Assembly (NCBI GenBank): GCA_017848115.1
Contig: JAGAKZ010000030.1
Coordinates: forward strand, 62,001-126,000
Reading direction: 5' to 3'
DNA: 64,000 nucleotides
Source of the DNA: Oscillospiraceae bacterium
GTDB taxonomy: Bacteria > Bacillota > Clostridia > Oscillospirales > Ruminococcaceae
The translations under genes and the position numbers were made by a program. A model generated the notes under the pieces. That model had not been told where the DNA came from. It saw only the letters and a list, made by a program, of their open reading frames with translations, and searched no databases. Positions 20,790-54,259 of the stretch are shown piece by piece. The first letter of the stretch is position 1. Each line of letters begins with the position of its first letter.

Positions 20790-22454
20790 ATGGAGATAGA
20801 CGAAAAGAGACTTGCGTTTGGCCTTGCAGGAATGCTGGACAATATGTGGCTCATAGACCTTGATGGTGACAGGATAGACATAATTCTGGACAAATCAAAG
20901 CCTCAGTTGCAGGGACAAAGTATGTCGTATCGTGATTTTTATTTAGGGTATGTGAAGCTTTCGGGAAATATGGACAGGGTATATGACTGGTATGATACAT
21001 TTTCTCCCGAATCGCTCAGAGAGTTTGCAAAACTCGGCACTCATCAGTCGGAAATATATGATTCAATTTATTTTGAAGCTATGTGGTATCATATAAGTAT
21101 TTCTCCGATAGGCTTTAAAGACCGTAAAAATGTATTTATGGTCACAGGCCGTGATATAAGTGCGGAAAAACATGACACTATCATTTCAAATGCAGTTGAA
21201 AAATCATACGACTATATAGTACATCTCGATTTGTTTAAAAATTCATTTGTTATGTACAGAGGAAATCCTGATGATGACGCAATTATGCCACCTGAATCAG
21301 GAGATAACTATGATGATGAAATAATGCGTTATAACAAGGGCTATATCGCAGATTATGACCTCGAACGTGTAAATATGAAATTTATGCGTCAGAATATACT
21401 TAATGAACTTGATGAAAAAGAGTCCTTTGAGTTTTTCTGCGACTGTCTGGAAGCAGGCAAAACAAGGACAAAAGTTATACGAATATCATATCTTGACAGG
21501 GAAAACGGCATAGTTCTTGTGATGGGAACAGATATTACCCGTGACAGAGAAGAACGTAAACACGCCCTTAGTATAGCTCTTTCAAGAATAACTACCATAC
21601 ACGAGTTCTACTATTATCTGAAAGAAAATCGTTGCGAACTTCCTCAGAGAACTATGAGAAAATACAACTGTAAAAAGGTTTATACCGATATGCCTCATAG
21701 TTTTATGAAAGATTTTGTTTATGAGGAAGACTGGGACAATTTTGAGGAAATGTATAATCAGATAAGAAATCATGAACGTAAAACCGCAAAATGTGTTTTC
21801 AGAAACAAAAAAGGCGATGTATGGGTAAAGCAGACCTTGTCGGTTGTTCCTGCCGACGGAAAACAGAGTAATGTTGTTGTGGGTATACTTGAAGATATCA
21901 CAGAACAGAAAAAGATGGAGTTCCGTGCCGAGAGAGACCAGCTTACAGGACTTTACAACAAAGTATCCGCTCTTTCAAATATTCAGAACATCATGAAACG
22001 CTATAAAAATCAGACTCATGTTATGTTTGTTTTTGACCTTGATAACTTCAAGCAGATAAATGACTTGTACGGTCATAGTGCAGGCGATGACGTTCTTGTC
22101 GAAATGTCAACACTTCTCAGGAGTTATTTCAGAAGTGACGATATAGTTGCGAGATTTGGCGGAGATGAATTTATAGTGTTTGTTCCTTGTGTCAAGGATA
22201 AAAGAGTTGTGCTTGCCAAAGCCGACCTGATAATAGAAGCTGTCCGTGATGAAATAGGCGCACGTTACAATATGGCACAGATAACAACCAGCATAGGAAT
22301 AGCATATGCTGATATGGGTGCCACAGTAAGCGGAATATTTGAACAGGCGGATAAAGCACTTTATGAAGCAAAACAAAGCGGCAAAGACAGATGCTGTATA
22401 GCTAATCAACACTCTCGTCTGAAACAGTCTGTTCGTGAGACAGTGAAGATATAA
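20790..22454 (+). CDS. PAS-GGDEF diguanylate cyclase
   Basis: A 554-residue soluble protein predicted to make cyclic di-GMP from two GTP. The C-terminal domain has RDQLTGLYNK, DLDNFKQINDLYGHSAGDDVL and an intact GGDEF signature (residues 457-461). RSDD five residues before GGDEF fits the allosteric inhibitory site (RxxD), so product inhibition is likely. The N-terminal ~370 residues contain two or three PAS-like sensor segments, each ending in a GRDIS/GTDITRD/EDITEQ linker. There are no membrane helices, so it senses an internal cue. The ATG follows AACAGGGGG. Its 3' end overlaps the convergent XRE gene by about 53 bases, allowing mutual antisense interference. A tad pilus operon lies nearby. 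Confidence 0.92.
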   Translation: MEIDEKRLAFGLAGMLDNMWLIDLDGDRIDIILDKSKPQLQGQSMSYRDFYLGYVKLSGNMDRVYDWYDTFSPESLREFAKLGTHQSEIYDSIYFEAMWYHISISPIGFKDRKNVFMVTGRDISAEKHDTIISNAVEKSYDYIVHLDLFKNSFVMYRGNPDDDAIMPPESGDNYDDEIMRYNKGYIADYDLERVNMKFMRQNILNELDEKESFEFFCDCLEAGKTRTKVIRISYLDRENGIVLVMGTDITRDREERKHALSIALSRITTIHEFYYYLKENRCELPQRTMRKYNCKKVYTDMPHSFMKDFVYEEDWDNFEEMYNQIRNHERKTAKCVFRNKKGDVWVKQTLSVVPADGKQSNVVVGILEDITEQKKMEFRAERDQLTGLYNKVSALSNIQNIMKRYKNQTHVMFVFDLDNFKQINDLYGHSAGDDVLVEMSTLLRSYFRSDDIVARFGGDEFIVFVPCVKDKRVVLAKADLIIEAVRDEIGARYNMAQITTSIGIAYADMGATVSGIFEQADKALYEAKQSGKDRCCIANQHSRLKQSVRETVKI

Positions 22455-23415
22455 AATTTTCAAAAATATTTCGCAAGCTTTGTTCGTGTATTATTATACG
22501 ATAAAATATACTGTTTTTTTCAAATATCATAGAAATGTATTCAGAGTTTTTTTCAATAAAAAGATTTTTGTTTATTTTGAATATGACGTCTGTTTCTTCG
22601 GGAGCGGATGTTATTTTTTTGTATATAAGTTCATATGAGCTTTTAGAGATTCTTGAAGCAAGTTCACGATAAAGTGATAATATTTCAGATTCGGTATGGA
22701 GTATACCATGCTTTAAATCATTTGTAAATGTGAATGCATATCGTGATGTCAAAATAAGATTAGGCATAAGCGACAATGAATCCTGTCGCACTGATTTGTG
22801 CGTATAATTTATAAGGGGGCTGTAATTTTCACAAAATATTATAAGAGGTATTATATTTGCAAAACTGTTAAGATTATTTCCGTACAGTTCATAGTTACTG
22901 TCAAATGAAAGAATCTGTGTTATTCGGATGTCAGGGCGATTCACACTTATTGAAGTAAGCTCATGGGATATAAATTTTTCATGGGGCGGAGCGGATACAA
23001 AAACATTTGTCGTATCTGCATCTTCTAAAATTCGTTTAATCGTTGTCTGTACGGAAAGGTTATCATTTACTGTACATGAAAACAGCGACTCTGATTTTGT
23101 GCAGTATTCAAATATATCCGGTTCTGGAAGTTTTGAAAAATAGTTTATTATTTTTTCAGTGTTCAGATTCTGCAGATAGGCTTCCTTTCCCATGGTTGTA
23201 ATTTTATAGGCTTTGACAAGTTCTGCTTTTTCATCAACTGAAAGCATGAGACCTTTTGATATACCTTCTACTATTTTTATATCAGCAGGTGTCCTTGTTC
23301 CTGAAATATACTTGTGCAGAAGGGTTCTGTCTATTTGTGTGTGTGCTGCCAGAGCAGATATGTTTACCTTTCTTTCTTTTATAAAAAAAGAAAGTTGTTT
23401 TGAAAAATCACTCAA
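22402..23415 (-). CDS. XRE-type helix-turn-helix regulator
   Basis: A 337-residue protein. Residues 1-75 form a Cro/CI-like helix-turn-helix (NISALAAHTQIDRTLLHKYI, then SGTRTPAD). The rest is a ~260-residue domain of no recognised family with no membrane segment, possibly a ligand-sensing part. The start is an uncommon TTG at 23415 (minus strand), nine bases after GAGGTG. It is transcribed away from the tad operon across a shared 330-base region that holds a palindrome and direct repeats, so it is a candidate regulator of that operon or of itself. Its 3' end overlaps the GGDEF gene on the other strand. Confidence 0.75.
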   Translation of the reverse strand: MSDFSKQLSFFIKERKVNISALAAHTQIDRTLLHKYISGTRTPADIKIVEGISKGLMLSVDEKAELVKAYKITTMGKEAYLQNLNTEKIINYFSKLPEPDIFEYCTKSESLFSCTVNDNLSVQTTIKRILEDADTTNVFVSAPPHEKFISHELTSISVNRPDIRITQILSFDSNYELYGNNLNSFANIIPLIIFCENYSPLINYTHKSVRQDSLSLMPNLILTSRYAFTFTNDLKHGILHTESEILSLYRELASRISKSSYELIYKKITSAPEETDVIFKINKNLFIEKNSEYISMIFEKNSIFYRIIIHEQSLRNIFENFISSLSHEQTVSDESVD

Positions 23416-23540: not shown

Positions 23541-23607
23541 CCTTTTGGGGAATTTAAATTCCTTTTAGGGCGAAACTATTGTAATATATCATTTTAGATG
23601 TTATTAT
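23541..23607 (+). promoter_or_regulatory. tad operon promoter with tandem 20-bp-period repeat element
   Basis: Direct repeats CCTTTTGGGG (23541-23550) and CCTTTTAGGG (23561-23570) start 20 bp apart and flank AATTTAAATT, so GGAATTTAAATTCC (23549-23562) is also a perfect palindrome. Then come CGAAACTA (8 bp), the -35 TTGTAA (23579-23584), a 17-bp spacer and the -10 TATTAT (23602-23607). The same architecture precedes both Rpn-type genes (36854-36920 and 53061-53128, minus strand). Confidence 0.7.
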
Positions 23608-23714: not shown

Positions 23715-23749
23715 AAGGAGACTTCGCGGAGCGAAGAATAAATGTTATG
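23715..23749 (+). promoter_or_regulatory. ribosome site separated from start by a hairpin
   Basis: AAGGAG (23715-23720) is 26 bases from the ATG at 23747, too far for normal initiation. In between, CTTCGC (23722-23727) and GCGAAG (23731-23736) form a hairpin with a 3-base loop; if folded, the effective spacing drops to about 11 bases. A weaker internal GGAG at 23728 is the alternative. Confidence 0.5.
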
Positions 23750-24832
23750 ATAAAAATCAAGCTTGGAATAGTAGATCACGACAGAGTGTATCTTGACAGA
23801 ATATCAAAATACTTTAATAACAACTACAAAAATCAGGTTGAGGTTTACTCATTTACAGATGAATCAACAGTAACGGAAGCAGTAAGACAAAATAAGATAA
23901 ATGTTCTGATGGCAGCTCAGGATATAGAGATAAGAACAGACAGGCTTGCAGATTTTTGCATGTTTGCATATTTTGTTGATTCAAAGATGATAGATACATA
24001 CAGCGATTATCATGCGATATGTAAATTTCAGAGAGCTGATCTTATCTATAAACAGATATTGGGGCTTTATTCTGAAAAGCTTGCTGATAAGGTGAAGTAT
24101 AAAAACTCAGGAGCGAGAAAATCCGAAATAAGCTTGTTTGTTTCAGGATTTGATGGTGCAGGAGCAACAACTTCAGCTGCAGCATATGCAAGATATCTTG
24201 CGGCAAAGGGACGAAAGACATTATTTTTGAATCTCAAACAGTTTGGAAATATTGAAAATATTTTCGAGGCATCAGGAAAAGGTTCATTTACAGATGCGAT
24301 TTTTGCAATAAAGAGTCGTAAAGTGAATATGACGCTTAAACTTGAAAGTATTGTCAAGCAGAGTGATGATGGTGTTTATTTTTATGACAGATGTCGTGAT
24401 GTTCTTGATTATACTGAGATAAATCTCGACGAACTTGAAACATTGCTTGATGAAATGAGCGGAAGTTTTGGATACCATAACATAGTGGTTGTAACAGACT
24501 TTTATTTTTGTGACAGCCTTATATACCTTATGGAACAGGCAAAGGAAGTAATTATAGTTTGCGATAACAGAAAAACTTCTCAGGTTCAGCTTGAAAGAAG
24601 AACGTCAGCTATAAAGAGTCTTGATAACAGAAAAAATCTGAATGTTTCTGATAAAGTGCGACTTATTTTTAACAAAACTATAAATGCTAGTATATTCCGG
24701 ACAGATTTTCCGGTGATAGGTATACAGCCTGAACTGGAGATGTATGATGATAAGGAAATCGTTAAAGAAATGGCGTTTTCGGGAATATTTGATAAGATGA
24801 ATAGCGTCAGAAAACAGGGGACTATAGCATGA
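23747..24832 (+). CDS. tadZ: TadZ/CpaE-like pilus localisation ATPase
   Basis: About 361 residues: an N-terminal response-regulator-like domain (IKLGIVDHDRVYLDRI, residues 3-18) followed by a ParA/MinD-like domain. The nucleotide loop reads FDGAGATTSA (about residues 135-144), a deviant Walker A without the usual final Lys, as in TadZ/CpaE proteins. VVVTDFYF fits Walker B. TadZ marks the site where the Flp pilus machine assembles. The frame continues upstream to 23612, but the N-terminal domain begins at 23747. It is the first gene of the tad operon and overlaps tadA by ATGA. Confidence 0.85.
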   Translation: MIKIKLGIVDHDRVYLDRISKYFNNNYKNQVEVYSFTDESTVTEAVRQNKINVLMAAQDIEIRTDRLADFCMFAYFVDSKMIDTYSDYHAICKFQRADLIYKQILGLYSEKLADKVKYKNSGARKSEISLFVSGFDGAGATTSAAAYARYLAAKGRKTLFLNLKQFGNIENIFEASGKGSFTDAIFAIKSRKVNMTLKLESIVKQSDDGVYFYDRCRDVLDYTEINLDELETLLDEMSGSFGYHNIVVVTDFYFCDSLIYLMEQAKEVIIVCDNRKTSQVQLERRTSAIKSLDNRKNLNVSDKVRLIFNKTINASIFRTDFPVIGIQPELEMYDDKEIVKEMAFSGIFDKMNSVRKQGTIA

Positions 24833-26082
24833 CAGCGTCAGAAATAAGAAACAGTCGCAAAGAAAGTATGACGGCTGAGATGAAAGCTTACGTCATGGAA
24901 AATTTCAATCTGAGTGAAATGTCTGATGATGAGCTTTATAACAGAATAGAACAGGAAATAATACAAAGAACAAGTGACACTTTTTTGTCAATAGACGATA
25001 AGGTGGATATAATAGAGAGTATATTCAGTTCGATAAGAGGACTTGGACTTCTCGACATTATAATGAGAGATGACAGCATAACTGAGGTAATGATAAACGG
25101 GTATGATAACATATATGTGGAGAAAAACGGACGAGTAAAAAGGCTTAATAATAAATTTGAAAGCCCGCAGAGACTAGAGGATATAATACAGAGGATAGTT
25201 TCTGCTACAGGACGTGAAGTAAATCAGGCAAATCCTATAGTGGATACACGACTTGCCGATGGTTCTCGAGTAAATGTAGTTTTGCCGCCGATTTCACTGA
25301 GTGGGCCGGCAGTAACTATAAGAAAGTTTTCCAAAAAGCCGATGACGATAGAACAACTTATAAAATACGGTTCTATAACTCCTGATATAGCACACAAACT
25401 GGAGTTATTGGTAAAGGCGAGATACAATATATTTATAAGTGGCGGTACAGGGTCAGGAAAAACTACGTTCCTCAATGCTCTTTCAAATTTTATTCCTCAT
25501 GATGAACGAATAATTACTATAGAAGACTCGGCAGAATTACAGATAGAAAATGTAGAAAATCTTGTAAGTCTTGAAACCAGAAATGCCAATACGTCCGGTG
25601 TAGGACAGATTTCCATGAGAGATCTTATAAAATCATCGCTTCGAATGCGTCCCGAACGAATAATAGTCGGGGAAGTACGTGGAGCAGAGGCCCTCGATAT
25701 GCTTCAGGCAATGAATACCGGACATGATGGTTCTCTTTCAACAGGACACGCAAACTCGGCTTCGGATATGATGAGCCGACTTGAAACAATGGTTCTTACC
25801 GGTGCAGACGGTTTACCGCTTGCAGCGGTAAGGCAACAGATCGCGTCAGCTGTTGATGTTGTAATTCATCTTTCAAGACTTCGAGATCATTCAAGAAAAG
25901 TTACAGAGATAACAGAAGTAAGAGGCGTAACAAACGGAGAAATAGTATTAAATCCTATTTTCAAGTTTGAAGAAACAGAGGAAAGTACTGTTGAAACAGT
26001 ACGAGGCGAATTAAGGAGAACAGAAAACAAATTTTATTATGACGAAAAATTACTTAGAAGTGGAATTGATGAGGTAATATAG
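24829..26082 (+). CDS. tadA: TadA/CpaF secretion ATPase
   Basis: A 417-residue hexameric motor ATPase of the Tad type IV-like pilus system, powering pilin assembly. Motifs are ITEVMINGYDNIYVEKNGR in the N-terminal domain, Walker A GGTGSGKTT (residues 205-213), the Asp box ITIEDSAELQ, RPERIIVGEVRGAEA (Walker B region) and the His box TGHDGSLSTGHANS. It overlaps tadZ and precedes tadB by 10 bases. A full set of motifs indicates an active enzyme. Confidence 0.96.
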   Translation: MTASEIRNSRKESMTAEMKAYVMENFNLSEMSDDELYNRIEQEIIQRTSDTFLSIDDKVDIIESIFSSIRGLGLLDIIMRDDSITEVMINGYDNIYVEKNGRVKRLNNKFESPQRLEDIIQRIVSATGREVNQANPIVDTRLADGSRVNVVLPPISLSGPAVTIRKFSKKPMTIEQLIKYGSITPDIAHKLELLVKARYNIFISGGTGSGKTTFLNALSNFIPHDERIITIEDSAELQIENVENLVSLETRNANTSGVGQISMRDLIKSSLRMRPERIIVGEVRGAEALDMLQAMNTGHDGSLSTGHANSASDMMSRLETMVLTGADGLPLAAVRQQIASAVDVVIHLSRLRDHSRKVTEITEVRGVTNGEIVLNPIFKFEETEESTVETVRGELRRTENKFYYDEKLLRSGIDEVI

Positions 26083-26092
26083 GAAAATACAT

Positions 26093-26875
26093 ATGAAGAA
26101 AAAAAACATAGTAAAACATAACAAAGGAATTCTGGGAACAGGAACAGATTATGCATATTACAGTATGACAGTAAAGGAAAAGGTAATGGTTAGTGTAGCA
26201 AGTATTCTTGCAGGAACGCTTGCTTTTGGATTGTTCTTTAAAATTTCCCTGTTTGCGGTGATATTTGGTGTGATTGTTGCTGTTGTAATGCAAAAGCCGG
26301 GGACGGAGTTTTTCCGGAAAAAGCGGGATGAGAAGCTTCTTATTCAGTTTCGTGACTTTCTGGAATCACTGTCAGCCTCCCTTTCAGCTGGTCAGAATAT
26401 TTCCATGGCAATAAAATCAGCCGGAAATGATATGGTACAGCAGTATGGTGAAAATTCTATAATGGCGCAGGAAGTTGCGATAATAAATACCGGTATGGAA
26501 AATAACTACACCGCTGAAAATATGTTTATGGACTTTGCACAGAGAAGCAGACAGAAGGATATTATGAGTTTTGCTGAAACATTTCAGATATGCAACCGTA
26601 CAGGTGGTAATATGAAAAATATAATAGGCGCTACTTACAGAATCCTGAGTGACAAGATGGCGATTGAGGCTGAGATACAGGTAACAGCATCAAAAGGAAA
26701 AAATGATCTTCTTATAATGACTTGTATGCCATTTATTATAATGCCGATGATGAAATCGTTTGGAGGGGAAATGGCTGCCAATAATGCAACAAATGTAATA
26801 ATAAAAGTTATAGGCGCTGTACTTATTGCGGTTTCTTACATAATCGGAAGAAAAATAACGGAAATAAAGGTATAA
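26093..26875 (+). CDS. tadB: TadB-like type II secretion F domain protein
   Basis: A 260-residue inner-membrane platform protein with paired N-terminal hydrophobic segments (residues 35-65), a cytoplasmic T2SSF domain (FRDFLESLSASLSAGQNISMA, then TFQICNRTGGNMKNII) and a C-terminal helix. With TadC it forms the platform on which the TadA motor acts. The ATG at 26093 lies 10 bases after tadA. Confidence 0.9.
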   Translation: MKKKNIVKHNKGILGTGTDYAYYSMTVKEKVMVSVASILAGTLAFGLFFKISLFAVIFGVIVAVVMQKPGTEFFRKKRDEKLLIQFRDFLESLSASLSAGQNISMAIKSAGNDMVQQYGENSIMAQEVAIINTGMENNYTAENMFMDFAQRSRQKDIMSFAETFQICNRTGGNMKNIIGATYRILSDKMAIEAEIQVTASKGKNDLLIMTCMPFIIMPMMKSFGGEMAANNATNVIIKVIGAVLIAVSYIIGRKITEIKV

Positions 26876-26893
26876 GGAAAGGAGATATTTTTT

Positions 26894-27760
26894 ATGGACA
26901 GTACTGCTAAAATAATTATGGCAGCAGTAGGAACCGTCGCCGCTCTTTTTTGGACAATGCTTTTTATGCGTAATAGCACAAAGTATACAGATGTCATTAA
27001 GACAACAGCAGCTAAGGAATATCCCCTGAGTTCGACTTTCTTTATCGGATTTGCGATTATGAAAATGTTGAAGATTAATGTCAGAGGCGAAAAATATGCA
27101 TTGAAAAGAAGCAGAGCTGCAGAGCTTTACGGAGCAAAATACGCAGAGTTTTATACATATCTGATAACAGGGGCACAGATAACATACGCAGTCACAATAT
27201 TTCCGATAATAATATTGCTTGCATCAGCAGCAGGAAGTGTGGAATTCGGAGCTCTTGGAGCAGTAGTATCAATACTTATGTTGTTTTATATAGATGAAGA
27301 TATCAAGAAAAAGGTAAGCGAAAGACATGATGAACTTTTGTGTGAGCTTCCGGACGTTATATCAAGACTTACAGTTCTTGTTAATGCGGGTATGGTATTC
27401 AGAGAAGCATGGAATAAAATAGCCATATCATCTGATTCACTGCTTTGTAAAGAGATGCAGAAGACTTATGATGATATTCATAACGGAATGCCGGAATCTG
27501 ACGCTTTTAATGCATTTGCAGACAGATGTCGTACAAAGGAGATAAGAAAGTTTGTCAGTACATTAAATCAGAATCTTCAGAAAGGAAGTACAGAGCTTGT
27601 ATATTCTCTTCAGAACGCAGCCAATGAGCAGTGGGAGGAAAAGAAGAATATGGTCAAAAGGAAAGGAAACGCTGTCGAACAGAAACTGTTATTGCCGATG
27701 ATACTAATATTTATCGCAATAATAATAATGGTTATAGTTCCGGTGTTTACTAATATATAA
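26894..27760 (+). CDS. tadC: TadC-like type II secretion F domain protein
   Basis: A 288-residue platform protein, partner of TadB. It has an N-terminal helix, a hydrophobic pair around residues 95-135, a T2SSF domain (LPDVISRLTVLVNAGMVFREAW, with FVSTLNQNLQKGS following) and a C-terminal helix, LILIFIAIIIMVIVPV. The ATG follows AAAGGAGAT. This fits the standard tadABC order. Confidence 0.9.
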   Translation: MDSTAKIIMAAVGTVAALFWTMLFMRNSTKYTDVIKTTAAKEYPLSSTFFIGFAIMKMLKINVRGEKYALKRSRAAELYGAKYAEFYTYLITGAQITYAVTIFPIIILLASAAGSVEFGALGAVVSILMLFYIDEDIKKKVSERHDELLCELPDVISRLTVLVNAGMVFREAWNKIAISSDSLLCKEMQKTYDDIHNGMPESDAFNAFADRCRTKEIRKFVSTLNQNLQKGSTELVYSLQNAANEQWEEKKNMVKRKGNAVEQKLLLPMILIFIAIIIMVIVPVFTNI

Positions 27761-27786
27761 AAAATAATAAATAGGAGAGTAAAAAA

Positions 27787-28014
27787 ATGAAAAATTTAAT
27801 CGCAAAAACAGCAGCAAAAGCAACAATTAAAATGGCTCAGGCAAAGGCAAAGATGATGAACGCACTCAAGGATGAAAGAGGCGAAGTAAACCTTATCGCT
27901 ATACTTCTCATAATAGTAGTTGTTGTAGGTCTTGTAATCATATTCCGTGAAAGTATCACTACTTTGATAAATAACATCTTTAAGAATATCAACAAAGAAG
28001 TTGAAAAAGTGTAA
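27787..28014 (+). CDS. flp: Flp-type pilin
   Basis: A 75-residue prepilin and the likely major subunit of the Tad pilus. A basic 32-residue leader ends in DERG; cleavage after Gly32 would release a mature peptide starting EVNLIAILL with one long hydrophobic helix (residues 35-53) and a short polar tail. The mature +5 position is Ile rather than the conserved Glu of canonical Flp pilins, the Glu being at +1 instead, which is unusual. The leader is unusually long and Ala/Lys-rich. It has a good ribosome site AGGAGAG and lies directly between the platform genes and the pseudopilins. Confidence 0.85.
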   Translation: MKNLIAKTAAKATIKMAQAKAKMMNALKDERGEVNLIAILLIIVVVVGLVIIFRESITTLINNIFKNINKEVEKV

Positions 28015-28019
28015 GTGAT

Positions 28020-28691
28020 ATGGTGAAGTTCTTCAAAGAGGAGAAGGGAGCGGCTTTGCTTGTAGAAGCCGCTTTCGTATATCCTGTAGTAATTATAGTA
28101 GTAGTGTTTATGTTATACATGGGGATGTATATGTACGAATCGGCGGTGATTCATGATATGGCGGCAACAACGTCTATGATGGCATCAAAATCAATATCAT
28201 TTCCGGGATATGATGAATTAGGCGGTTCGTATGTTTCGGGAGTAGGCAGTGAAGGTGAGATAACTGTAGGTACTGTAAAAAAGGCGTATGAAGATATGTC
28301 ACCTTACAGATACATAGTAAAGGGGAAAGTAAATAATTTATTTAACGAAGGCCTTATAGCTCAAACTGAAAATATTCTTCTTAAAGAGGAGGATATAAAG
28401 TGTAATATTGATGTAAAGCGTCACCTTCTTAGCAGACGCATAACCGTAAAGCTTGAGAAACAGGTTTCCATGCCTCAGTTTTTTGATATTATAGGTATAG
28501 CAGATTCTTATAAAATAACAGCTACGGAAACATCAATAACATCTGATCCTGCAGAATTTGTAAGGAATACGGATATAACTGCGAATGCCATGGGATATCT
28601 TGCAGATAAACTTAAACTGGGAGAAAAACTTTCTGCGTTAAGAGAGAAAATAAATGGTGTTCTGGACAGTCTTGGAATAAACGGAGATTAA
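28020..28691 (+). CDS. tadE: TadE-like pseudopilin
   Basis: A 223-residue minor pilin. The N-terminus EEKGAALLVEAAFVYPVV has the prepilin-like Gly followed by a Glu-containing hydrophobic helix typical of TadE. The remaining ~180 residues form an extracytoplasmic domain of no recognised fold. The ATG is six bases after the Flp pilin stop. TadE/TadF pseudopilins prime or regulate pilus assembly. Confidence 0.85.
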   Translation: MVKFFKEEKGAALLVEAAFVYPVVIIVVVFMLYMGMYMYESAVIHDMAATTSMMASKSISFPGYDELGGSYVSGVGSEGEITVGTVKKAYEDMSPYRYIVKGKVNNLFNEGLIAQTENILLKEEDIKCNIDVKRHLLSRRITVKLEKQVSMPQFFDIIGIADSYKITATETSITSDPAEFVRNTDITANAMGYLADKLKLGEKLSALREKINGVLDSLGINGD

Positions 28692-28696
28692 GGAAA

Positions 28697-29866
28697 ATGA
28701 AAAAAATAAAAACATTTAAAGGCTCAGTGACGGTTGAAGCATCACTGGCTTTGCCTATATTTTTACTTGGATTTGTTCTTATACTGTCATTGGTTCGTAT
28801 AATTCGTGTTGAAAGCATGATACAGCACAGCGTGAACAGAATGGCAATAGAATTGTCAGAGTACTGTTATGCTGCTGATAAGCTTTCGCTTACAGATGCA
28901 ATAGTCAAATCAAATATGACAGTAGGAGAAGCAGTAGAGAATATAGCCGGTATGACAGGGCTTATGAGTGATGAAACCAGTGAGGACTCTGAAGGAATGG
29001 CGGTCATAACCGAGCTTACAGATTTTCTGCTTGGAGATACGGCTGACATGGCGATAAGCGGTCCGATTGTAGAAGGTATTTGTCACATGCTTATGCCAAA
29101 ATATATAGCTGAAAATAAAACGAAGGCTGATAAATATCTTGAGGAATTAAGCGGAATAACTATATCTGATATAGATTTTCGTTATTCGACTTTGCTCAAA
29201 GATGGCAAATCAGTAAAACTTACGGCTATTTATAACCTGAAACTCAATACTTTCGGATTTTTTGAAGATGATATGAAGTTTACAATGCAGAATAATGCAA
29301 GCACAGCAGCATGGCTCGGCAATATGACGAAAAAAGAAACCGAAGAGGAAGAGTCAGAGGCTGAAGAAGAGGAAGAAAATGAACCTACCAAGTGGAAACT
29401 TCTGAATTTTGAGAGAGGCAAGGCGTGGGTAGCACAGATAAAATCAGAAAATGCCGATAAAGCAACAGCTGCCGGAAAAGGTATTCATCTTTATGATGAA
29501 AAAGAGGGCGTGTTCACAACTATCCGTACTGTAAATGTATTTTCACAAACTTATTCATCATATGATTCGTCACTTAGCGGTGCGGCTGCTTTTAAACTTA
29601 ACGAAAAGGAGTTCCGTGGCGTTTTGAGAGGATATGCAAAGGAAGTTCTTAAAGACACCAGTAATGTAGGCGGAGATATAAAGATGGAGGATGGAACTGT
29701 AAAGACTATACTTACTAAAAATAGAAAGTCAGCACTTATAGTTGTCATTCCGGAAGAGGCAAAGGAAAACGAAGAACTGTACAATTCAATTTTGGAAATC
29801 GGAAAGAGCATTTCGGATGAACACAAGGTGAAAATAGACTTTGTATTCAGCGAAAAAGCACTTTGA
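28697..29866 (+). CDS. TadE/TadF-like pseudopilin, large
   Basis: A 389-residue protein. FKGSVTVEASLALPIF is a classic pseudopilin N-terminus with Gly at the cleavage site and Glu at +5. It is much longer than the usual TadF (about 150-200 residues). It contains an acidic linker (ETEEEESEAEEEEEN) followed by a ~150-residue C-terminal domain with VVIPEEAKENEEL. The ATG follows TTAAGGAAA, five bases after tadE. The large exposed domain could be a pilus-tip or adhesion element; that is inferred from size and position only. Confidence 0.8.
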   Translation: MKKIKTFKGSVTVEASLALPIFLLGFVLILSLVRIIRVESMIQHSVNRMAIELSEYCYAADKLSLTDAIVKSNMTVGEAVENIAGMTGLMSDETSEDSEGMAVITELTDFLLGDTADMAISGPIVEGICHMLMPKYIAENKTKADKYLEELSGITISDIDFRYSTLLKDGKSVKLTAIYNLKLNTFGFFEDDMKFTMQNNASTAAWLGNMTKKETEEEESEAEEEEENEPTKWKLLNFERGKAWVAQIKSENADKATAAGKGIHLYDEKEGVFTTIRTVNVFSQTYSSYDSSLSGAAAFKLNEKEFRGVLRGYAKEVLKDTSNVGGDIKMEDGTVKTILTKNRKSALIVVIPEEAKENEELYNSILEIGKSISDEHKVKIDFVFSEKAL

Positions 29867-29890
29867 TATATAGAGAAAGGCATTAATATT

Positions 29891-30526
29891 ATGGCTATTT
29901 TGATGGGAATTCTGACAGCTGTAATTTCAGCATTTATTTTTATAAAACTAAAAAATGTAAAAGAAGGAGATAAAAAAGCAGAAACTCAGGGTAAGTGGTT
30001 TTTTTGTTCATTGGCAGTATATCTTCTGTTTGATATAGTAGCAGCATTGATTATGAAAAATCATGATATCAGTATGCTGTCATCATTCAGTACACTTATC
30101 CTTATAAATGCAATGTTTCTCCTTGCAGTAATTGATTTTAATCACAAAATTATACCTAATAAATATGTCCTCGGAATGATTGTTATACGATTTCTGCTTA
30201 TAATATTTGATGGCGTTTTAAGTAAAAATTTTGTAGAGATAATGTTAAAATCACTTATAGGTATGCTCATAGGATTTATAGTGCTTGGACTTACAGCACT
30301 TGTATCAGGTAAAAATCTTGGTGCAGGTGATGTTAAGATGTATGCGGTTATAGGTTTTTTTACGGGAGGAGCAGAAGTGCTCGATGTTCTGATATATTCG
30401 TCAGTCATTTGTGCAGTAACCGGTTTATTACTCGTTGCGTTGAAAAAGTGTAATATGAAGTCACTTGTTCCTATGGCGCCATTTGCGTTTGTAGGCACGG
30501 TTCTGTATGTATTTTTAGGATTATAA
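29891..30526 (+). CDS. tadV: TadV/CpaA prepilin peptidase
   Basis: A 211-residue A24-family aspartic protease with six or so membrane helices. The catalytic Asp residues are in VIDFNHKIIPNKY and in the GxGD-type motif GAGDVKMYAVIG. It removes the leaders of the Flp pilin and pseudopilins. It is a short form without the N-methylation domain. It lies 24 bases after the large pseudopilin gene in the same operon. Confidence 0.92.
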   Translation: MAILMGILTAVISAFIFIKLKNVKEGDKKAETQGKWFFCSLAVYLLFDIVAALIMKNHDISMLSSFSTLILINAMFLLAVIDFNHKIIPNKYVLGMIVIRFLLIIFDGVLSKNFVEIMLKSLIGMLIGFIVLGLTALVSGKNLGAGDVKMYAVIGFFTGGAEVLDVLIYSSVICAVTGLLLVALKKCNMKSLVPMAPFAFVGTVLYVFLGL

Positions 30527-30536
30527 GGAGTATGAA

Positions 30537-31739
30537 ATGAAGAAGGAAAACCGTAAAAAAAAGAGCAATAAAAATGAAAAATATGGCGTTCTTGTAATTA
30601 TGATTGTAATGATAGCGGTTGGCTGGAGTGGCATGTTAGGTAGTTCTGATAAAGAAGATCTGGATTATTATGTTTCAAGAGCCGAAGAACATGAAGGCAA
30701 GGGTGCGTATATTACTGCAGTAGAATGTTATCTTAAAGCATTGGAATTAACGCCTGGAAATTATGAGTATATGCTCAAGGTAGCTGAAAATTATAAGAAT
30801 TGTGATGATAGAAATGGATTTTTCGATTATTGCGATAGGGCTATAGGTGTTGATCCTGAAAATAACAGAGCTTACATCATGAAAGCTCAATATTATATTG
30901 AGGATGAATCATATGCAAAGGCTATAGGTGTACTCACAAATGCACCTGTCACAGACGAGGAAATGAAAGAGATGCTTATGGACGCATCATATCGTTATAG
31001 GACATATGTAAAAAGCTTTGAAGATACATATGGTTTTTATGGGCAATATGCAGCAGTAATGAGCGATGAAGGTAAATGGGGAGTTATTGACAGTGAAGGT
31101 GATATGAAAATATCTGCAAAGTACGATGCTGTTGGTGGATATAACAGGCATGATGATGTTGTTCCGGTCTGCAGAGATGGTGAGTGGTACTTTGCCGATA
31201 TTAACGGAAATAAAAAATACGTTCCAAATAACAATTATACCTTTTTAGGAACATATCGTGACGGCTATGCACCGGTTTGTCTGGATTCCAAGTATGGTTA
31301 TATCGATCTTATGTATAAAGAATATAAGATGGAATACGACTTTGCAAGTTCTTTTGCATACGGTGTAGCGGCGGTATGTAAAGATGGAAAATGGGCACTT
31401 ATAAATAATTCTTTCGAAAATATTACTGATTTTGAATATGATAGTATAGAAGTTAATGAGTATGGTACTTGTGAATTTGGTGAAGTTATAACGGCGGTTA
31501 AGGATGGACAAACAGTGTATCTTGATCTTGAAGGAAACGTAACGGAAAAAACAGATGTATATTTTTCCGGTGTGACAGTTACTGAAAAAGATGGGCTTTT
31601 TGGTTTTGCCACACAGGAAAAACAGGTTATTGATGAAATCTTTGAAGAAGCAACTCCGTTTTCCGATTATGGTTCAGCTATGGTGAAAACAGAAAGAGGC
31701 TGGCAGGTTATAAGATTTTACAAGTATATGGAATACTAA
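30537..31739 (+). CDS. TPR and WG-repeat protein at end of tad operon
   Basis: A 400-residue protein with one N-terminal transmembrane helix (residues 17-34), two or three TPR-like units (YYVSRAEEHEGKGAYITAVE, then NYEYMLKVAENYKN) and five or more WG repeats (KWGVIDSEGD, EWYFADINGN, KYGYIDLMYK, KWALINNSF, LFGFATQEK). WG repeats form beta-propeller-like binding surfaces. It starts 10 bases after tadV behind AAGGAG, so it is co-transcribed. The TPR part may replace the missing TadD-type assembly factor; the WG part may bind the wall or pilus. Its stop overlaps the convergent DUF4363 gene. Confidence 0.8.
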   Translation: MKKENRKKKSNKNEKYGVLVIMIVMIAVGWSGMLGSSDKEDLDYYVSRAEEHEGKGAYITAVECYLKALELTPGNYEYMLKVAENYKNCDDRNGFFDYCDRAIGVDPENNRAYIMKAQYYIEDESYAKAIGVLTNAPVTDEEMKEMLMDASYRYRTYVKSFEDTYGFYGQYAAVMSDEGKWGVIDSEGDMKISAKYDAVGGYNRHDDVVPVCRDGEWYFADINGNKKYVPNNNYTFLGTYRDGYAPVCLDSKYGYIDLMYKEYKMEYDFASSFAYGVAAVCKDGKWALINNSFENITDFEYDSIEVNEYGTCEFGEVITAVKDGQTVYLDLEGNVTEKTDVYFSGVTVTEKDGLFGFATQEKQVIDEIFEEATPFSDYGSAMVKTERGWQVIRFYKYMEY

Positions 31740-35899: not shown

Positions 35900-36781
35900 T
35901 CAATTATCTGTTATTTCTTTAATCTGTTCATCAGACATTCCCATTTCACGCATTTTCTTGATGAGTTTTTCTGATTTTTCAATAGCGGATTGTTTTTGAG
36001 TTTCTAAAACCTGTTTTTCACTTTCTAAAATTTGTTTTTCTTTTTTCATTTTTTCCTCGGTTTCTTTCAACTGCAAAGTCAAATCGGCATTAATATCTGC
36101 AGCATATTTTTTAGCAAAATTTCTTACAGCGTCGCTCATAGCGTTCACTCCTTCTTCAGTATGTTTGATTTGTTTTATTCTGTCAGATAATGCACCGAAG
36201 TGCGAGATGTTCATATCCGTGTTTTTAAAGTATTCCATAAGTGGTGTTATGGGTCTGTTGGTTTTTACGGCTGTATTCAGATAAATTTCATGTATGCCAT
36301 TTGGTACTTCCTTATCATATCCATTGACTGTACGTTTTATCGAATAGTAATTATCATTTAATTTAAAAATATCAAAAGCAGTGATATATATGAGATAGAT
36401 ATCAGGAAGATTTTTGTATTTTACACCCTTTTCAAGATATGAAATATCGATATTTGACTGATAATATCGTATGCGTTTAGGGTGATAATCGTTATTTGGT
36501 TTCTGTACTTCAATGTTGTATATTTTACTTTTGCTGTCTTCAGCCAGTACATCAAGAGTAACTGAATGTGTATTAAGATTTCTTATGGAATATTGTGTTT
36601 TTACGTTCATAACTTTGAGATCGTAAATTCCTGTGATTTCCCTTAATATGTACTCACAAGCAGATTTATCTTTCATTACTTCAGAAAAAAAGCCGTCATC
36701 CATGAGGTTGAAGTCTTTGACAATAGCTTGTTTCTGTTCAAAAGTACCGATGAGGTCTTCATATTTTATTTCTTTTGTCAT
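35900..36781 (-). CDS. Rpn/PD-(D/E)XK nuclease transposase family protein, copy 1
   Basis: A 293-residue protein of the Rpn/PDDEXK-type transposase family abundant in Ruminococcus-like genomes. The nuclease core is in the first ~190 residues: GTFEQKQAIVKDFNLMDDGF, then the active-site strand pair LDVLAEDSKSKIYNIEVQ (Asp, then Glu-x-Gln), and RIRYYQSNIDISYLEKG. The tail from about residue 235 is Lys/Glu-rich coiled coil ending in an amphipathic motif (REMGMSDEQIKEI). It closely resembles the gene at 52134-52988. Related E. coli Rpn proteins are nucleases that promote recombination. Its ATG follows AAGGAG, and its promoter carries the tandem-repeat element shared with the tad operon. Confidence 0.88.
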   Translation of the reverse strand: MTKEIKYEDLIGTFEQKQAIVKDFNLMDDGFFSEVMKDKSACEYILREITGIYDLKVMNVKTQYSIRNLNTHSVTLDVLAEDSKSKIYNIEVQKPNNDYHPKRIRYYQSNIDISYLEKGVKYKNLPDIYLIYITAFDIFKLNDNYYSIKRTVNGYDKEVPNGIHEIYLNTAVKTNRPITPLMEYFKNTDMNISHFGALSDRIKQIKHTEEGVNAMSDAVRNFAKKYAADINADLTLQLKETEEKMKKEKQILESEKQVLETQKQSAIEKSEKLIKKMREMGMSDEQIKEITDN

Positions 36782-36853: not shown

Positions 36854-36920
36854 ATTATAACATTTTTTTGTAATCGGCACAATAGATTTTCCCTAAGAAG
36901 TAATTTTTATCCCTAAAACG
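36854..36920 (-). promoter_or_regulatory. Rpn-type gene 1 promoter with tandem 20-bp-period repeat element
   Basis: Read on the minus strand: CGTTTTAGGG (36911-36920), a 10-bp AT spacer, CTTCTTAGGG (36891-36900), AAAATCTA (8 bp), -35 TTGTGC (36877-36882), a 17-bp spacer and -10 TATAAT (36854-36859). The layout matches those at 23541-23607 and 53061-53128. The rest of the gap from 36782 to 37127 is AT-rich with nothing else I can identify. Confidence 0.7.
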
Positions 36921-46479: not shown

Positions 46480-47775
46480 TCAGATACAAAACGTTGCATA
46501 AAGAGGAATTACCTTTTTATTATCTTCAAATGCAAAGTTTTTTGCAGATATCTTAATGGCATAAGCAGGCTTATAAGTGTCCATGTATACTCTAAGGCTT
46601 TTGGATTTAGTGTTATCGGCTGATTTTACTTCAACCGGAATAAGCTGACCTTTACGTTGAATTATAAAATCAATTTCAGCGCCACGTTCTGATTCCCAAT
46701 AATAAGTTTTATAGCCGTTGACAGTAAGCTGTATATTGACATAGTTTTCAGTCATGCCACCTTTAAAGTCATTAAGTTCTTCTACCATATAGAGAATATC
46801 ATTTGCAGCCAAATCTTTTTTTGCGCAAAGCAAGCCCGTATCTGATACGTAAATTTTGAAAGCATCTATATCACGGTAGTTTTCCAAAGGTTTTTTTATT
46901 TGTTCTGCCTTGTAGATTTGCGATACTATACCGGACAGGCAGAGCCATTCTATAGCATTTTCAAATTCGGAAGCACGTCCGCCTTTTTTTATAAGCTTAT
47001 ATTGAAAACGAGTATTTTTCTTTGAGAGTTGAACGGTAATATTATCATAAGTCAGTCTGGTTTTTTTGATTTCGTTTAAGTTGTTGTATTTACTCATGTC
47101 ATTGAGATAACTTGTGAGGATAGTATCTTGTGTATGACGGACGAGGATATGATCTTTTGTTTGAGCAAACAGCATTACACATTCGGGCATACCACCTACG
47201 ACAAGGTATTGACGGTAAAGTTGTGTTGCTATGTCGTGCAAAGCTGACGGCATGGGACTGTCAGTTTCAAAACATTTTCTGATTTGCTCTACAAGAGTAT
47301 TATGACCCAATGCAAGCATAAATTCTTCCATATCCATAGGATACATGGTTTTTATATCCACTTTGCCTACAGGAAATGAAAATGTAGTTCTGTTGACTGC
47401 CACTCCGAGAAGACTGCCTGCCACAATAATATGATAGTCCGGAGCATCTTCACAAAAATATTTAAGTGATGTCAAAGCTCTTTCACAAAGCTGTACTTCG
47501 TCAAATATTATCAAAGTTTTTTCTCTTATGATGGTCTGCCCTGCGATATGAGATAAAATTGGTATCAGATAATCAGGGCTTATGTTTTCCTTGAATGTTT
47601 CATTAAGCTTAGGGTTGGTTTCAAAATTGAAGTAAGCTACATTTTCATAGGCTTTACGTCCAAATTCCAGTACAGAGTAAGTTTTGCCGACCTGTCTTGC
47701 CCCTTGTAAAATGAGAGGTTTGCGGTGTTCGCTTGCTTTCCATGCTTCTAAGTAGCTCATAATTTTTCTATACAT
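46480..47775 (-). CDS. AAA ATPase with DUF4143 domain, copy 1
   Basis: A 431-residue AAA_14/DUF4143 protein. Walker A GARQVGKTY (about residues 25-33), Walker B LIIFDEVQLCE and sensor IVAGSLLG form the N-terminal ATPase. The C-terminal DUF4143 half includes VGGMPECVM and ends with a nuclease-like SERGAEIDFIIQ...LIPVEVKSA (PD-(D/E)XK-like Glu-x-Lys). The family is very common in anaerobes, with no settled function; links to mobile DNA and nucleic-acid metabolism have been proposed. The ATG follows CCGGAGGA. It is head-to-head with a second member of the family. Confidence 0.88.
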   Translation of the reverse strand: MYRKIMSYLEAWKASEHRKPLILQGARQVGKTYSVLEFGRKAYENVAYFNFETNPKLNETFKENISPDYLIPILSHIAGQTIIREKTLIIFDEVQLCERALTSLKYFCEDAPDYHIIVAGSLLGVAVNRTTFSFPVGKVDIKTMYPMDMEEFMLALGHNTLVEQIRKCFETDSPMPSALHDIATQLYRQYLVVGGMPECVMLFAQTKDHILVRHTQDTILTSYLNDMSKYNNLNEIKKTRLTYDNITVQLSKKNTRFQYKLIKKGGRASEFENAIEWLCLSGIVSQIYKAEQIKKPLENYRDIDAFKIYVSDTGLLCAKKDLAANDILYMVEELNDFKGGMTENYVNIQLTVNGYKTYYWESERGAEIDFIIQRKGQLIPVEVKSADNTKSKSLRVYMDTYKPAYAIKISAKNFAFEDNKKVIPLYATFCI

Positions 47776-48059: not shown

Positions 48060-49361
48060 ATGAAAAAAAAGACTTTGATAGCACGTGATTTTTATCTTAA
48101 CAGGCTTATAGATTTTAAAGATACAGATATGATAAAAGTTATTACCGGAATAAGACGTTGCGGTAAATCAATTCTGATGGGACTTATGCAGGAGTATCTT
48201 TTAAATAACGGTGTATCTGAAAAACAGATTATATCTATAAATTTTGAGTCTATGGTGTATTCGGATATGGACGTAAAGACATTATATGAGTATGTCTGTA
48301 AAAATGTTGTGTCAGATAAAAAAATATATCTCTTTTTTGATGAAGTTCAGCTTGTGAAAGATTGGCAGAAGGCGATAAATTCATTCAGAGTTGATATTGA
48401 TTGTGATATATATATTACAGGTTCAAATGCATATTTGCTTTCATCTGAATTGTCTACCTATCTTTCAGGCAGATATATTGAAATCAAAGTTTTGCCACTC
48501 TCCTTCAGAGAATTTATAGATTTTCACGGATACAGATTAAAAGAAAAAATACTTTCAGACAAAAGCAGTAAGAAGATTATTTATGATGCGGAAAATGATC
48601 CTGTTGATGCAAGAGATATTTTTGATTTGTATGTAAAATATGGCGGTATGCCGTCTATTGCTGATGTTGGTCTTGATGTTGAAAAAGTATCAGCTGTTCT
48701 TGATGGTATATATTCCGCTGTTATTGTCAGAGATATACTTGAGCGTAAAAAACATGATAACATACGTCAGATAAATGATGCTGTTCTTTTGCGGAAAATC
48801 ATGATGTTTCTTGCAGATAACATAGGAAACAATACTTCTTCAAATTCTATAAAAAATACTCTTATAAATGAAAAATTAATTGATAACAGACCTGCAGTAC
48901 AAACTGTAAGTGCTTATGTGAATGCTCTTACTGAGGCATTTGTATTTTATGAAATACAGCGTTTTGATATCAAAGGCAGAGAATATCTTAAAACTCTTGG
49001 TAAGTACTATATCGTGGATATAGGGTTGCGTAACTATCTTCTTGGAAATCGTGGAGATGACAGTGGTCATATTCTTGAAAATATTATTTATTTTGAACTG
49101 TTAAGACGAGGCTATGAGGTGTCAGTAGGAAAAATCAACAATAAGGAGATCGATTTTATTGCTGTTAAAACTAATGAAAAGAAATACATTCAGGTTACTG
49201 AAACTATGGTATCAGAGGAAACAAGACAACGTGAACTGGCGCCTTTGACAATGGTTGATGATAATTATGAAAAGTTTATTATTACGATGGATAAACCTAT
49301 TGTAACAGATATTGACGGTATCAGAATAATAAACGCTCTTGACTGGCTTCTTAACGAATAA
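48060..49361 (+). CDS. AAA ATPase with DUF4143 domain, copy 2
   Basis: A 433-residue relative of the divergent neighbour from a different subgroup: Walker A GIRRCGKSI, Walker B YLFFDEVQLVKDWQ, sensor YITGSNAYLLSSELSTYLSG and FREFIDFHG. The C-terminal half has YGGMPSIADVG, then KYYIVDIGLRNYLLG and a nuclease-like HILENIIYFELLRRGYEV...NNKEIDFIAV. The two proteins align in plan but differ in sequence, so this is not a recent duplication. The start ATG at 48060 follows GACGGTGATTTT. It has a consensus promoter and its own terminator. Confidence 0.9.
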   Translation: MKKKTLIARDFYLNRLIDFKDTDMIKVITGIRRCGKSILMGLMQEYLLNNGVSEKQIISINFESMVYSDMDVKTLYEYVCKNVVSDKKIYLFFDEVQLVKDWQKAINSFRVDIDCDIYITGSNAYLLSSELSTYLSGRYIEIKVLPLSFREFIDFHGYRLKEKILSDKSSKKIIYDAENDPVDARDIFDLYVKYGGMPSIADVGLDVEKVSAVLDGIYSAVIVRDILERKKHDNIRQINDAVLLRKIMMFLADNIGNNTSSNSIKNTLINEKLIDNRPAVQTVSAYVNALTEAFVFYEIQRFDIKGREYLKTLGKYYIVDIGLRNYLLGNRGDDSGHILENIIYFELLRRGYEVSVGKINNKEIDFIAVKTNEKKYIQVTETMVSEETRQRELAPLTMVDDNYEKFIITMDKPIVTDIDGIRIINALDWLLNE

Positions 49362-52084: not shown

Positions 52085-52134
52085 AAAAACTCACGCCCTT
52101 GCAGATAATGTATTCTGCAAGGGCGTGAGTTTTT
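52085..52134. terminator. bidirectional terminator between feo operon and Rpn-type gene 2
   Basis: A perfect 21-bp stem (52085-52105 with 52114-52134), A-rich on the left and T-rich on the right; it touches the stop codon of the convergent Rpn-type gene. Confidence 0.95.
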
Positions 52135-52988
52135 TATAACTGTTCACCTATGATTTCCATGATAAGTTCTTCGGACAGGCCTTTTGCTCGCATGTTCTCT
52201 ATAGTGTTTTGTCTTTGTTGTGCTAACTTTCTTTGGTTTTCTTTCTTCTGTTCTTCGAGTTGTTTCTGATTTTCTTTATTCTGCTCATCTAATTTTTTTT
52301 GTGCATATCTTTCTGCCATTTCAAGTACAGCTTCACTCATAGAATTCACTCCTTGATTTGTATTTTTAATGTTTCTTACTTTGTCGGACAGTGGACCGAA
52401 GTCGGCTCTGTCTGCGTCTGTATTTTTAAAATATTCCATAAGACGAGTGATTGGTTTATCAGTTTTAACGGCGGTATTCAGATAAATTTCATGAACACCA
52501 TTGTCTGATTCAACACCGTGCCCGTCAATAATTCTTTTGATATGGTAATAGTTATCTCCAAGCTTGAAAACATCAAATAATGTAATGTAGATAAGATAAA
52601 TATCCGGCATTTCCATATATTTTTTGCCTTTTTCAAAATAGGATATATCGATGTTTGATTGATAATATCGCATACGTCTTGGGTGATAATCATTATCCGG
52701 TTTCTGAACTTCAATGTTGTACAATTTGCTGTTGCTGTCTTCTGCGAGTACATCAAGAGTGACAGAATGTGTGCCGATGTTTCGCAGTGCATATTGGATT
52801 TTTACATCAATGACTGTCAGATCTTTGATGCCGGTGATTTCTCTCAGTACATATTCGCAGGCGGCTTTGTCTTTCATAACCTCTGAAAAGAAGTCATCAT
52901 CCATAAGGTTGAAACTGTTTACAATAGCCTGTTTCTGTTCAAAAGTACCAAGAAGATTTTCATAATCAAATTTTATTTTTGTTTTCAT
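52134..52988 (-). CDS. Rpn/PD-(D/E)XK nuclease transposase family protein, copy 2
   Basis: A 284-residue homologue of the gene at 35900-36781, with most of the first ~190 residues identical by eye: GTFEQKQAIV, FSEVMKDKAACEYVLREITG, then LDVLAEDSNSKLYNIEVQ holding the Asp and Glu-x-Gln of the nuclease centre, and YYQSNIDISYFEKG. The C-terminal tail is Gln/Lys-rich coiled coil ending in a short motif like copy 1 (RAKGLSEELIMEI). The ATG follows AAAGGAGGAAC. Both copies are intact and share a promoter architecture, so they look expressed rather than decaying. Confidence 0.88.
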   Translation of the reverse strand: MKTKIKFDYENLLGTFEQKQAIVNSFNLMDDDFFSEVMKDKAACEYVLREITGIKDLTVIDVKIQYALRNIGTHSVTLDVLAEDSNSKLYNIEVQKPDNDYHPRRMRYYQSNIDISYFEKGKKYMEMPDIYLIYITLFDVFKLGDNYYHIKRIIDGHGVESDNGVHEIYLNTAVKTDKPITRLMEYFKNTDADRADFGPLSDKVRNIKNTNQGVNSMSEAVLEMAERYAQKKLDEQNKENQKQLEEQKKENQRKLAQQRQNTIENMRAKGLSEELIMEIIGEQL

Positions 52989-53060: not shown

Positions 53061-53128
53061 AGTATAACATATATTTTGATATGATTTCAATAGAAATGCC
53101 CTGAAAGGTAATTTTTCGCCCTAAGATG
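53061..53128 (-). promoter_or_regulatory. Rpn-type gene 2 promoter with tandem 20-bp-period repeat element
   Basis: Read on the minus strand: CATCTTAGGG (53119-53128), a 10-bp AT spacer, CCTTTCAGGG (53099-53108), CATTTCTA (8 bp), -35 TTGAAA (53085-53090), an 18-bp spacer and -10 TATACT (53061-53066). It matches the elements at 23541-23607 and 36854-36920. Confidence 0.7.
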
Positions 53129-53383: not shown

Positions 53384-53632
53384 ATGACAGAAAAACAATT
53401 AAAAAGGTTAAAGAGAACCGAGCTTCTTGAGATACTTTTTTTTATGAGAAAAGAAATAGAAACTCTGCAACAGGAAAATGCAGAGTTAAAGGAAAAGCTT
53501 GATAAATATTCGAGTGGAGGAAATATGATACTTTCGGATGCCAATATGGAAATGCTTACAAAGGCAGTTGAGTCAGCAGTAGCAAAACATCTTGGAGGTT
53601 CCGCTAAGAGAAATAACAACAAAAAGCGGTGA
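53384..53632 (+). CDS. small coiled-coil protein, first gene of pilus operon
   Basis: An 82-residue hydrophilic protein with a leucine-zipper-like helix (RTELLEILFFMRKEIETLQQ continuing to about residue 45) and a basic C-terminus. No family is assigned, though similar short proteins precede signal peptidase genes in clostridial pilus loci. The ATG follows CCGGAG, and the stop overlaps the signal peptidase frame, indicating coupling. It may be a cytoplasmic helper or regulator of pilin export; that is inference. Confidence 0.65.
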   Translation: MTEKQLKRLKRTELLEILFFMRKEIETLQQENAELKEKLDKYSSGGNMILSDANMEMLTKAVESAVAKHLGGSAKRNNNKKR

Positions 53633-53637
53633 GTAAC

Positions 53638-54225: not shown

Positions 54226-54259
54226 AGACAAGGTATGATTAGTGCGGGAGGTGACAGTT

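Follow-up and report, generated by a model that had tools for sequence, protein, structure and literature searches.

The tad operon and two nuclease-family genes have a common promoter layout

The window, that is, the whole stretch of 64,000 nucleotides analysed here, comes from a bacterium whose genus is probably Ruminococcus. It contains a tad pilus operon, inferred from gene order and strand, and two genes of the PD-(D/E)XK nuclease family, designated Rpn1 and Rpn2, whose proteins are 61% identical. The genes are the following:

22402-23415, minus strand: XRE-type HTH gene, divergent from tadZ
23747-24832, plus strand: tadZ, first gene of the tad operon (Pfam TadZ-like_ARD, 122.7 bits)
24829-31739, plus strand: remainder of the tad operon (Pfam), with the seven entries that follow
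24829-26082, plus strand: tadA (Pfam)
26093-26875 and 26894-27760, plus strand: two T2SSF genes of the tadB/tadC type (Pfam)
27787-28014, plus strand: ORF for a Flp-like pilin of 75 aa (by reading)
28020-28691, plus strand: gene without family match
28697-29866, plus strand: TadE-like gene (21.8 bits, below the cut-off of 22.9)
29891-30526, plus strand: prepilin peptidase gene (Pfam)
30537-31739, plus strand: gene for a TPR/WG protein (Pfam)
35900-36781, minus strand: Rpn1 (PDDEXK_2, 42.2 bits; TIGR01784 Rpn family, 75.4 bits)
52134-52988, minus strand: Rpn2 (PDDEXK_2, 32.4 bits)

With tadZ, tadA, the tadB/C-type genes, a pilin-like ORF and the prepilin peptidase, the operon resembles other Gram-positive Tad (Flp) pilus operons; what is different here is the control box and its partner genes. 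Elsewhere in the window, an ORF of 2316 aa (54242-61192) lies downstream of a signal-peptidase gene (53629-54225), and two AAA_14/DUF4143 ATPase genes form a divergent pair (46480-47775, minus strand; 48060-49361, plus strand).

The tad operon, Rpn1 and Rpn2 are each preceded by a compound promoter. Its repeats were located by reading the letters and by matrix score:

23541-23550, plus strand: tad promoter, repeat 1, CCTTTTGGGG
23561-23570, plus strand: tad promoter, repeat 2, CCTTTTAGGG
23571-23607, plus strand: tad promoter, 8-bp linker (23571-23578), proposed -35 TTGTAA (23579-23584), N17, proposed -10 TATTAT (23602-23607)
36911-36920, minus strand: Rpn1 promoter, repeat 1, CGTTTTAGGG
36891-36900, minus strand: Rpn1 promoter, repeat 2, CTTCTTAGGG
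36854-36890, minus strand: Rpn1 promoter, linker, proposed -35 TTGTGC, N17, proposed -10 TATAAT
53119-53128, minus strand: Rpn2 promoter, repeat 1, CATCTTAGGG
53099-53108, minus strand: Rpn2 promoter, repeat 2, CCTTTCAGGG
53061-53098, minus strand: Rpn2 promoter, linker, proposed -35 TTGAAA, N18, proposed -10 TATACT

All three follow the order repeat-N10-repeat-N8-(-35)-N17/N18-(-10), with the 8-bp linkers CGAAACTA, AAAATCTA and CATTTCTA, and the sequence ATGTTAT is present within each -10 region. Re-reading of the window sequence confirmed the positions and letters of the three elements as given in the original prediction, and also the layout, the linkers and the ATGTTAT motif described there.

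The compound promoter stands out from chance

For comparison, a set of 11 genomes of the genus was used (G000 to G010), in which G000 is the genome studied here, a draft of 3.34 Mb in 108 contigs that is 81% complete, and G003 is its sister. With a scoring matrix trained on sites of G000 and its relatives from which the three window sites had been excluded, the tad, Rpn2 and Rpn1 sites reached 41.8, 39.9 and 34.6 bits, respectively, whereas the independent site that ranked next in the window stayed at 1.9 bits and the best of 12 dinucleotide shuffles, scored with the same matrix, at 9.6 bits. In the 3.34 Mb of G000, the compound pattern with at most three mismatches was matched five times and never in the reversed control, and a second pattern gave six matches versus one; the pattern is thus more frequent than expected by chance, as the original prediction implied. 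Taken without the rest of the promoter, the two repeats say little: With at most three mismatches they were found seven times in G000 versus five times in the control, seven times in G003 versus seven, and 11 times in the window versus 7.1 +/- 3.0 in shuffles. It is the combination of the repeats with the linker and the -35 region that confers specificity. One extra weak match per genome in the repeats-only scan (L047 and L048) was dropped as noise.

Over the 120 positions upstream of the box, the tad promoter shares 40 with Rpn1 and 31 with Rpn2, a likeness as would be expected from unrelated AT-rich DNA. The promoters of the paralogous genes Rpn1 and Rpn2 share 50 of these 120 positions as well as eight of the ten spacer bases, and may therefore retain some common ancestry. 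As an explanation for the similarity of all three promoters, however, common descent or chance convergence has next to no probability, since the matrix scores, the reversed controls and the shuffles speak against it, the tad and Rpn flanks are unrelated, and the box is kept across diverged species.

The box marks a probable genus-wide regulon

The six sites of G000 precede tadZ, Rpn1, Rpn2, a DUF6514-type gene (83 aa), the gene of a secreted, adhesin-like protein that has a TQCA motif, and a gene for a YgjP-like metallopeptidase. All six have counterparts in G003, which carries a seventh site upstream of a YhgA-like Transposase_31 gene (L039). The two genomes are near-identical at several of these loci, so it is mainly the tad and adhesin-like promoters that are informative on conservation between them; at the tad promoter, the repeats are largely retained while much of the flank has diverged.

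The nine other genomes gave no match to the 20-bp pattern because many of them carry the box with a period of 21 bp. Upstream of tadZ this form is found in many genomes of the genus, with ACCTCTTAGGGCGAAAC-N4-ACCTCTTAGGGCGAAACTATTG as its fullest version. The 21-bp pattern detected 31 sites in six of the 11 genomes (G001, 4; G002, 2; G005, 4; G006, 12; G008, 2; G010, 7) and none in the reversed control. Five of these sites have no readable gene, due to a contig end or the lack of a locus. For the others, the first readable gene is tadZ (5 sites), a DUF6514 gene (6), an adhesin-like gene (2), a gene for an NYN-domain protein (1), a PD-(D/E)XK/YhgA-like gene that is over the model cut-off or 40% identical to one of these (3; L112, L093, L108), a sub-cut-off Rpn-like gene or a relative of such genes (3; L113, L115, L105), or a gene for an unassigned protein (6; L103, L095, L111, L109, which is broken, L097, which is cut, and L116). 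The proposed regulon is supported but wider than in the original prediction, since it also includes DUF6514, adhesin-like and YgjP-type peptidase genes and one NYN-domain gene. Competence genes are absent from the readable first genes downstream of the boxes, and the competence or DNA-exchange programme that had been suggested is not supported.

Matches to the Rpn/PD-(D/E)XK models were above the cut-off for L112, L093 and L039 and below it for L113 and L115; L108 is 40% identical to L039, and the L111-type proteins and L116 did not match these models. Comparison of an L111-type profile with an Rpn alignment gave a probability of 1.3%, and that of the L108 pair 13.7%. The box-bearing proteins L111, L103, L095, L097 and L116, which have 318 to 343 aa where complete and no library match, are possibly further nuclease-like families. 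In G006, a broken copy of an L111-type gene (L109, near 641-1300) lies downstream of an intact-looking box. The predicted structures of two unassigned nuclease-like proteins were set aside at mean pLDDT values of 45 and 40. PADLOC returned weak matches only, and Rfam two tRNAs only, both in L002. The adhesin-like proteins were compared with models of thioester adhesins: L101 matched TED with 17.3 bits (cut-off 22) and L005 matched TQXA with 16.1 bits (cut-off 30.4), while L101 also matched SpaA with 24.4 bits (cut-off 23.1).

Rpn1 has 28 matches in the genus, of which four have the box, namely Rpn1 and Rpn2 of G000 and G003; the other 24 have none, the best score being 11.7 in 920 bp, where clear boxes score at least 14.3. 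A metagenome-assembled genome carries a 21-bp site before a protein that shares 55% identity with Rpn1 across 96 residues (L123). This gene and the members in the 21-bp genomes extend the link between the box and Rpn-type genes beyond the paralogues of the window. A promoter common to tad and Rpn-type genes, as originally proposed, is thus supported for the window genes and for some further Rpn-type genes, but for none of the 24 other Rpn1 homologues.

Beyond the genus, the 12 matches of the 20-bp pattern in 11 of 389 genomes were discarded as chance, given 19 reversed-control matches over all 396 genomes. The exact 21-bp pattern was found in 18 stretches of genome_contigs, all from metagenome-assembled genomes titled Ruminococcus, Oscillospiraceae or Eubacteriales. 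In viral_contigs, the exact pattern had no match.

The box is conserved in orthologous promoters

The original prediction implied conservation upstream of orthologous tad genes. We found tadZ in ten of the 11 genomes, and the box is present in all ten promoters; DUF6514 was found in all 11 genomes, each time with the box. In G004 (at tad), G007 and G009 the box is degenerate, and in the latter two it is mainly the second repeat that is clear. The upstream DNA inspected for two weaker DUF6514 paralogues, L213 (G003) and L214 (G000), has no box. Of the 21 tadZ and DUF6514 upstream regions, 20 were compared with 100 shuffles each, and in 19 of them all shuffles stayed below the real score; that of G009 tadZ was reached by one of 100 shuffles. 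The remaining region, G002 tadZ, is an exact match to the 21-bp pattern.

In the aligned promoters, the distance between the GGG and the -35 region is 8 bp. The -35 regions fall into two classes: TTG is found at tad and DUF6514, and in the 21-bp genomes most of the other genes have TAGACA or TTTAC. In these genomes, conservation continues past the core of 10 bp into CGAAAC downstream of repeat 2; behind repeat 1, CATTTC, ATTTTG and other sequences take the place of this stretch. A third upstream repeat with conserved bases is out of register and is not claimed.

Two spacer lengths in one regulon

The period is 20 bp at all six sites of G000 and at six of the seven of G003, whose tad site fits 20 and 21 bp equally; together, this makes 12 of 13 sites. 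The statement of the original prediction that the repeats are always 20 bp apart is therefore valid for this genome and its sister, but not for the six other genomes of the genus with 21 bp, whose 31 sites were sought with the 21-bp pattern while the 20-bp pattern detected none there. G004 also has 21 bp, and the periods in G007 and G009 are unsure. With the genomes labelled in this way, a branch of the TadZ tree that has full support sets the 21-bp rows apart on one of its sides. An adhesin-like gene lies behind telA in G000 and G003 (20 bp) as well as in G006 and G010 (21 bp); three orthologous promoters, those of tad, DUF6514 and the adhesin-like gene, therefore differ by the same base. The period of 21 bp is seen to either side of the root as drawn and would be the older state.

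A LytTR-type activator as the probable regulator

The original prediction had placed a dimeric activator next to the -35 region. The 8-bp placement supports this arrangement, and its probable class can now be named: Very probably, the box is the operator of an activator of the LytTR kind, similar to AgrA, ComE and SilA, that would serve all these promoters in one programme. SilA, a LytTR protein of Streptococcus, requires a pair of 10-bp repeats separated by an AT-rich spacer of 11 bp, and its repeat 2 is [AG]CCTTTTAAG, of which positions 2, 6 and 10 are critical (PMC2766830). If read one base earlier, all six repeats of the window have the C2, T6 and G10 of the SilA box. In Streptococcus mutans, LytTR boxes are located 4-11 bp above the -35 region with 9-bp repeats 11 or 12 bp apart, and separations of 11-13 bp are described elsewhere (PMC6193735); 20 and 21 bp are therefore both known periods. 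Judged from these sources, the boxes of SilA, HdrR/BrsR of S. mutans and AgrA are like ours in having 9-10-bp direct repeats about two turns apart, an AT-rich spacer and a place just upstream of the -35 region, and the critical SilA bases are present here. The difference lies in the targets, which are bacteriocin, competence and own-operon promoters there, but tad pilus and nuclease-type genes here.

Additional support comes from the surroundings of the LytTR genes. All 11 box-bearing genomes have such genes, 76 altogether and 2 to 12 per genome, with 11 in G000; 69 loci of about 1-3 kb each were fetched, leaving out seven of G006. We searched these for direct repeats of any letters with a 20-21-bp period above a TTG-N16-18-TA promoter. 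A first, looser run gave 97 overlapping matches versus 7.3 in shuffles. In the final search, the 69 loci (185,655 bases) contained 12 distinct boxes versus 0.33 in shuffles, and eight control periods gave three boxes versus 2.67. The other loci of the genus (204,212 bases) had one, the regulon box itself (L207), and loci from other genera (33,623 bases) also had one. Among the 12, L027 and L155 represent one orthologous place, and some may be due to chance, the promoter position having been checked for part of them. The clearest (L034 2288-2352, G000, contig C5) reads CCATTTACGA-N10-CCACTTACGA-N8-TTGAAA-N17-TACAAT and thus has the geometry of the regulon box with other letters, beside a LytTR response-regulator gene. 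It is flanked by a LytTR/kinase-type gene pair on one side and by a divergent row of lipoprotein-like and transport-type genes on the other. The orthologous LytTR gene of G001 (L186) has a 20-bp box of its own, again with other letters.

Which of the LytTR proteins might be the regulator was addressed by comparing groups in a tree that comprised 56 rows over 200 aa, with L033 dropped. The L029 group is the sole group present in ten of the 11 genomes; the draft G002 is the one in which it was not seen. Its member in G000 lacks a receiver-domain match and is encoded between an FtsK/SpoIIIE-type gene, which precedes it, and a YukD gene, in an operon that appears to be of the type-VII-secretion type; genes of this group at L227 (7457-8191, no receiver match) and L228 (9827-10591) lie in operons of this type. 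The L154 group, a GHKL-kinase/response-regulator pair, occurs in G001, G002, G005 and G008, with the kinase seen in G001 and G002, and the L027 group in G000, G003, G004, G006, G007 and G009. A short form of about 150 aa (L024 group) was rejected: It was found in only eight of the 11 genomes; of the six LytTR matches in G005, which is rated 100% complete and has the box, not one belongs to it. None of the L029, L154 and L027 loci has the regulon box; over the 69 of 76 LytTR loci the best score was 12.6, which is noise level, and the fetched regulon loci contain no LytTR gene. In LytTR systems, a box at the promoter of the regulator itself is common but not obligatory; at these 69 loci, no regulator gene with the regulon box was found.

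A different class of activator acting on the same regulon, of the AraC, OmpR or MerR/BldC type, seems unlikely to us. The conservation into CGAAAC after repeat 2 in the 21-bp genomes would suit a protein that covers about 17 bp per half-site, as AraC-type proteins do. The stretch after repeat 1, however, varies in the way a spacer would; the core agrees with the SilA box, and boxes of the same geometry cluster at LytTR genes. Direct repeats are also bound by OmpR-type regulators (PMC6222199). It is less plausible still that the box serves a repressor, or that it is split among paralogous regulators, so that the genes are not switched on together: the 2 to 12 LytTR genes per genome and the two -35 classes would allow this, but the fixed place just upstream of the -35 region is the arrangement of an activator. 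Control of the box by the XRE-type neighbour of tadZ is very improbable, and as a general regulator this protein was excluded; it adjoins tadZ divergently in all seven genomes that have it, but no homologue was found in G001, G002, G005 and G008, which carry 4, 2, 4 and 2 box sites, respectively. The XRE gene, whose product has a long C-terminal part, is probably a local regulator of tad.

Returning to the LytTR-type activator, the two LytTR domains of a dimer would each contact one of the 10-bp repeats, which lie on the same DNA face at a distance of two helical turns and 8 bp upstream of the -35 region of a sigma-A-type promoter, where the bound protein would help RNA polymerase. For the literature searched, whose coverage falls short of most subscription journals, we found no paper on this box or on a Tad/LytTR or Tad/Rpn regulon, and the terms 'tad pili' and 'lyttr' together retrieved none.

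Biological implications

The regulon would couple attachment, by way of the Tad pilus and a secreted adhesin-like protein, with some nuclease-type proteins of the Rpn/PD-(D/E)XK group and with DUF6514 proteins. For the latter, no paper was found under that name. The PD-(D/E)XK-type genes resemble those of the Rpn (YhgA-like) recombination-promoting nucleases of Escherichia coli; a regulon joining Rpn proteins with pili was not met in the part of the literature that we could search. Rpn nucleases are described as promoters of RecA-independent recombination (PMC5350276) and, in a preprint, as toxin-antitoxin systems in phage defence (PMC10327210). Because a pilus and an adhesin-like protein belong to the regulon, we favour the idea of a programme for attachment or for crowding and high cell density that would be combined with nuclease defence; the nucleases would be self-protecting or genome-editing. 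Nothing was found in favour of DNA exchange.

It is tempting to speculate further that one LytTR-type signal, perhaps a peptide or a cell-density cue, governs attachment and nuclease genes throughout the genus, and that in the clade studied here the whole regulon has shifted together from 21 to 20 bp; we regard this as conceivable, if somewhat short of an even chance. For SilA, a change of the spacer by one base is reported to abolish all activity (PMC2766830), and a concerted change would therefore need an altered regulator. If true, nature would offer here an example in which the geometry of an operator and its regulator have changed jointly at every target, and the one-base difference across the regulon would represent a natural experiment on the joint change of a regulator and its sites. 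In these bacteria, the box delimits a regulon that has a sharply defined operator and that connects Rpn-type nucleases and DUF6514 proteins with the genes for the pilus and for adhesin-like proteins.
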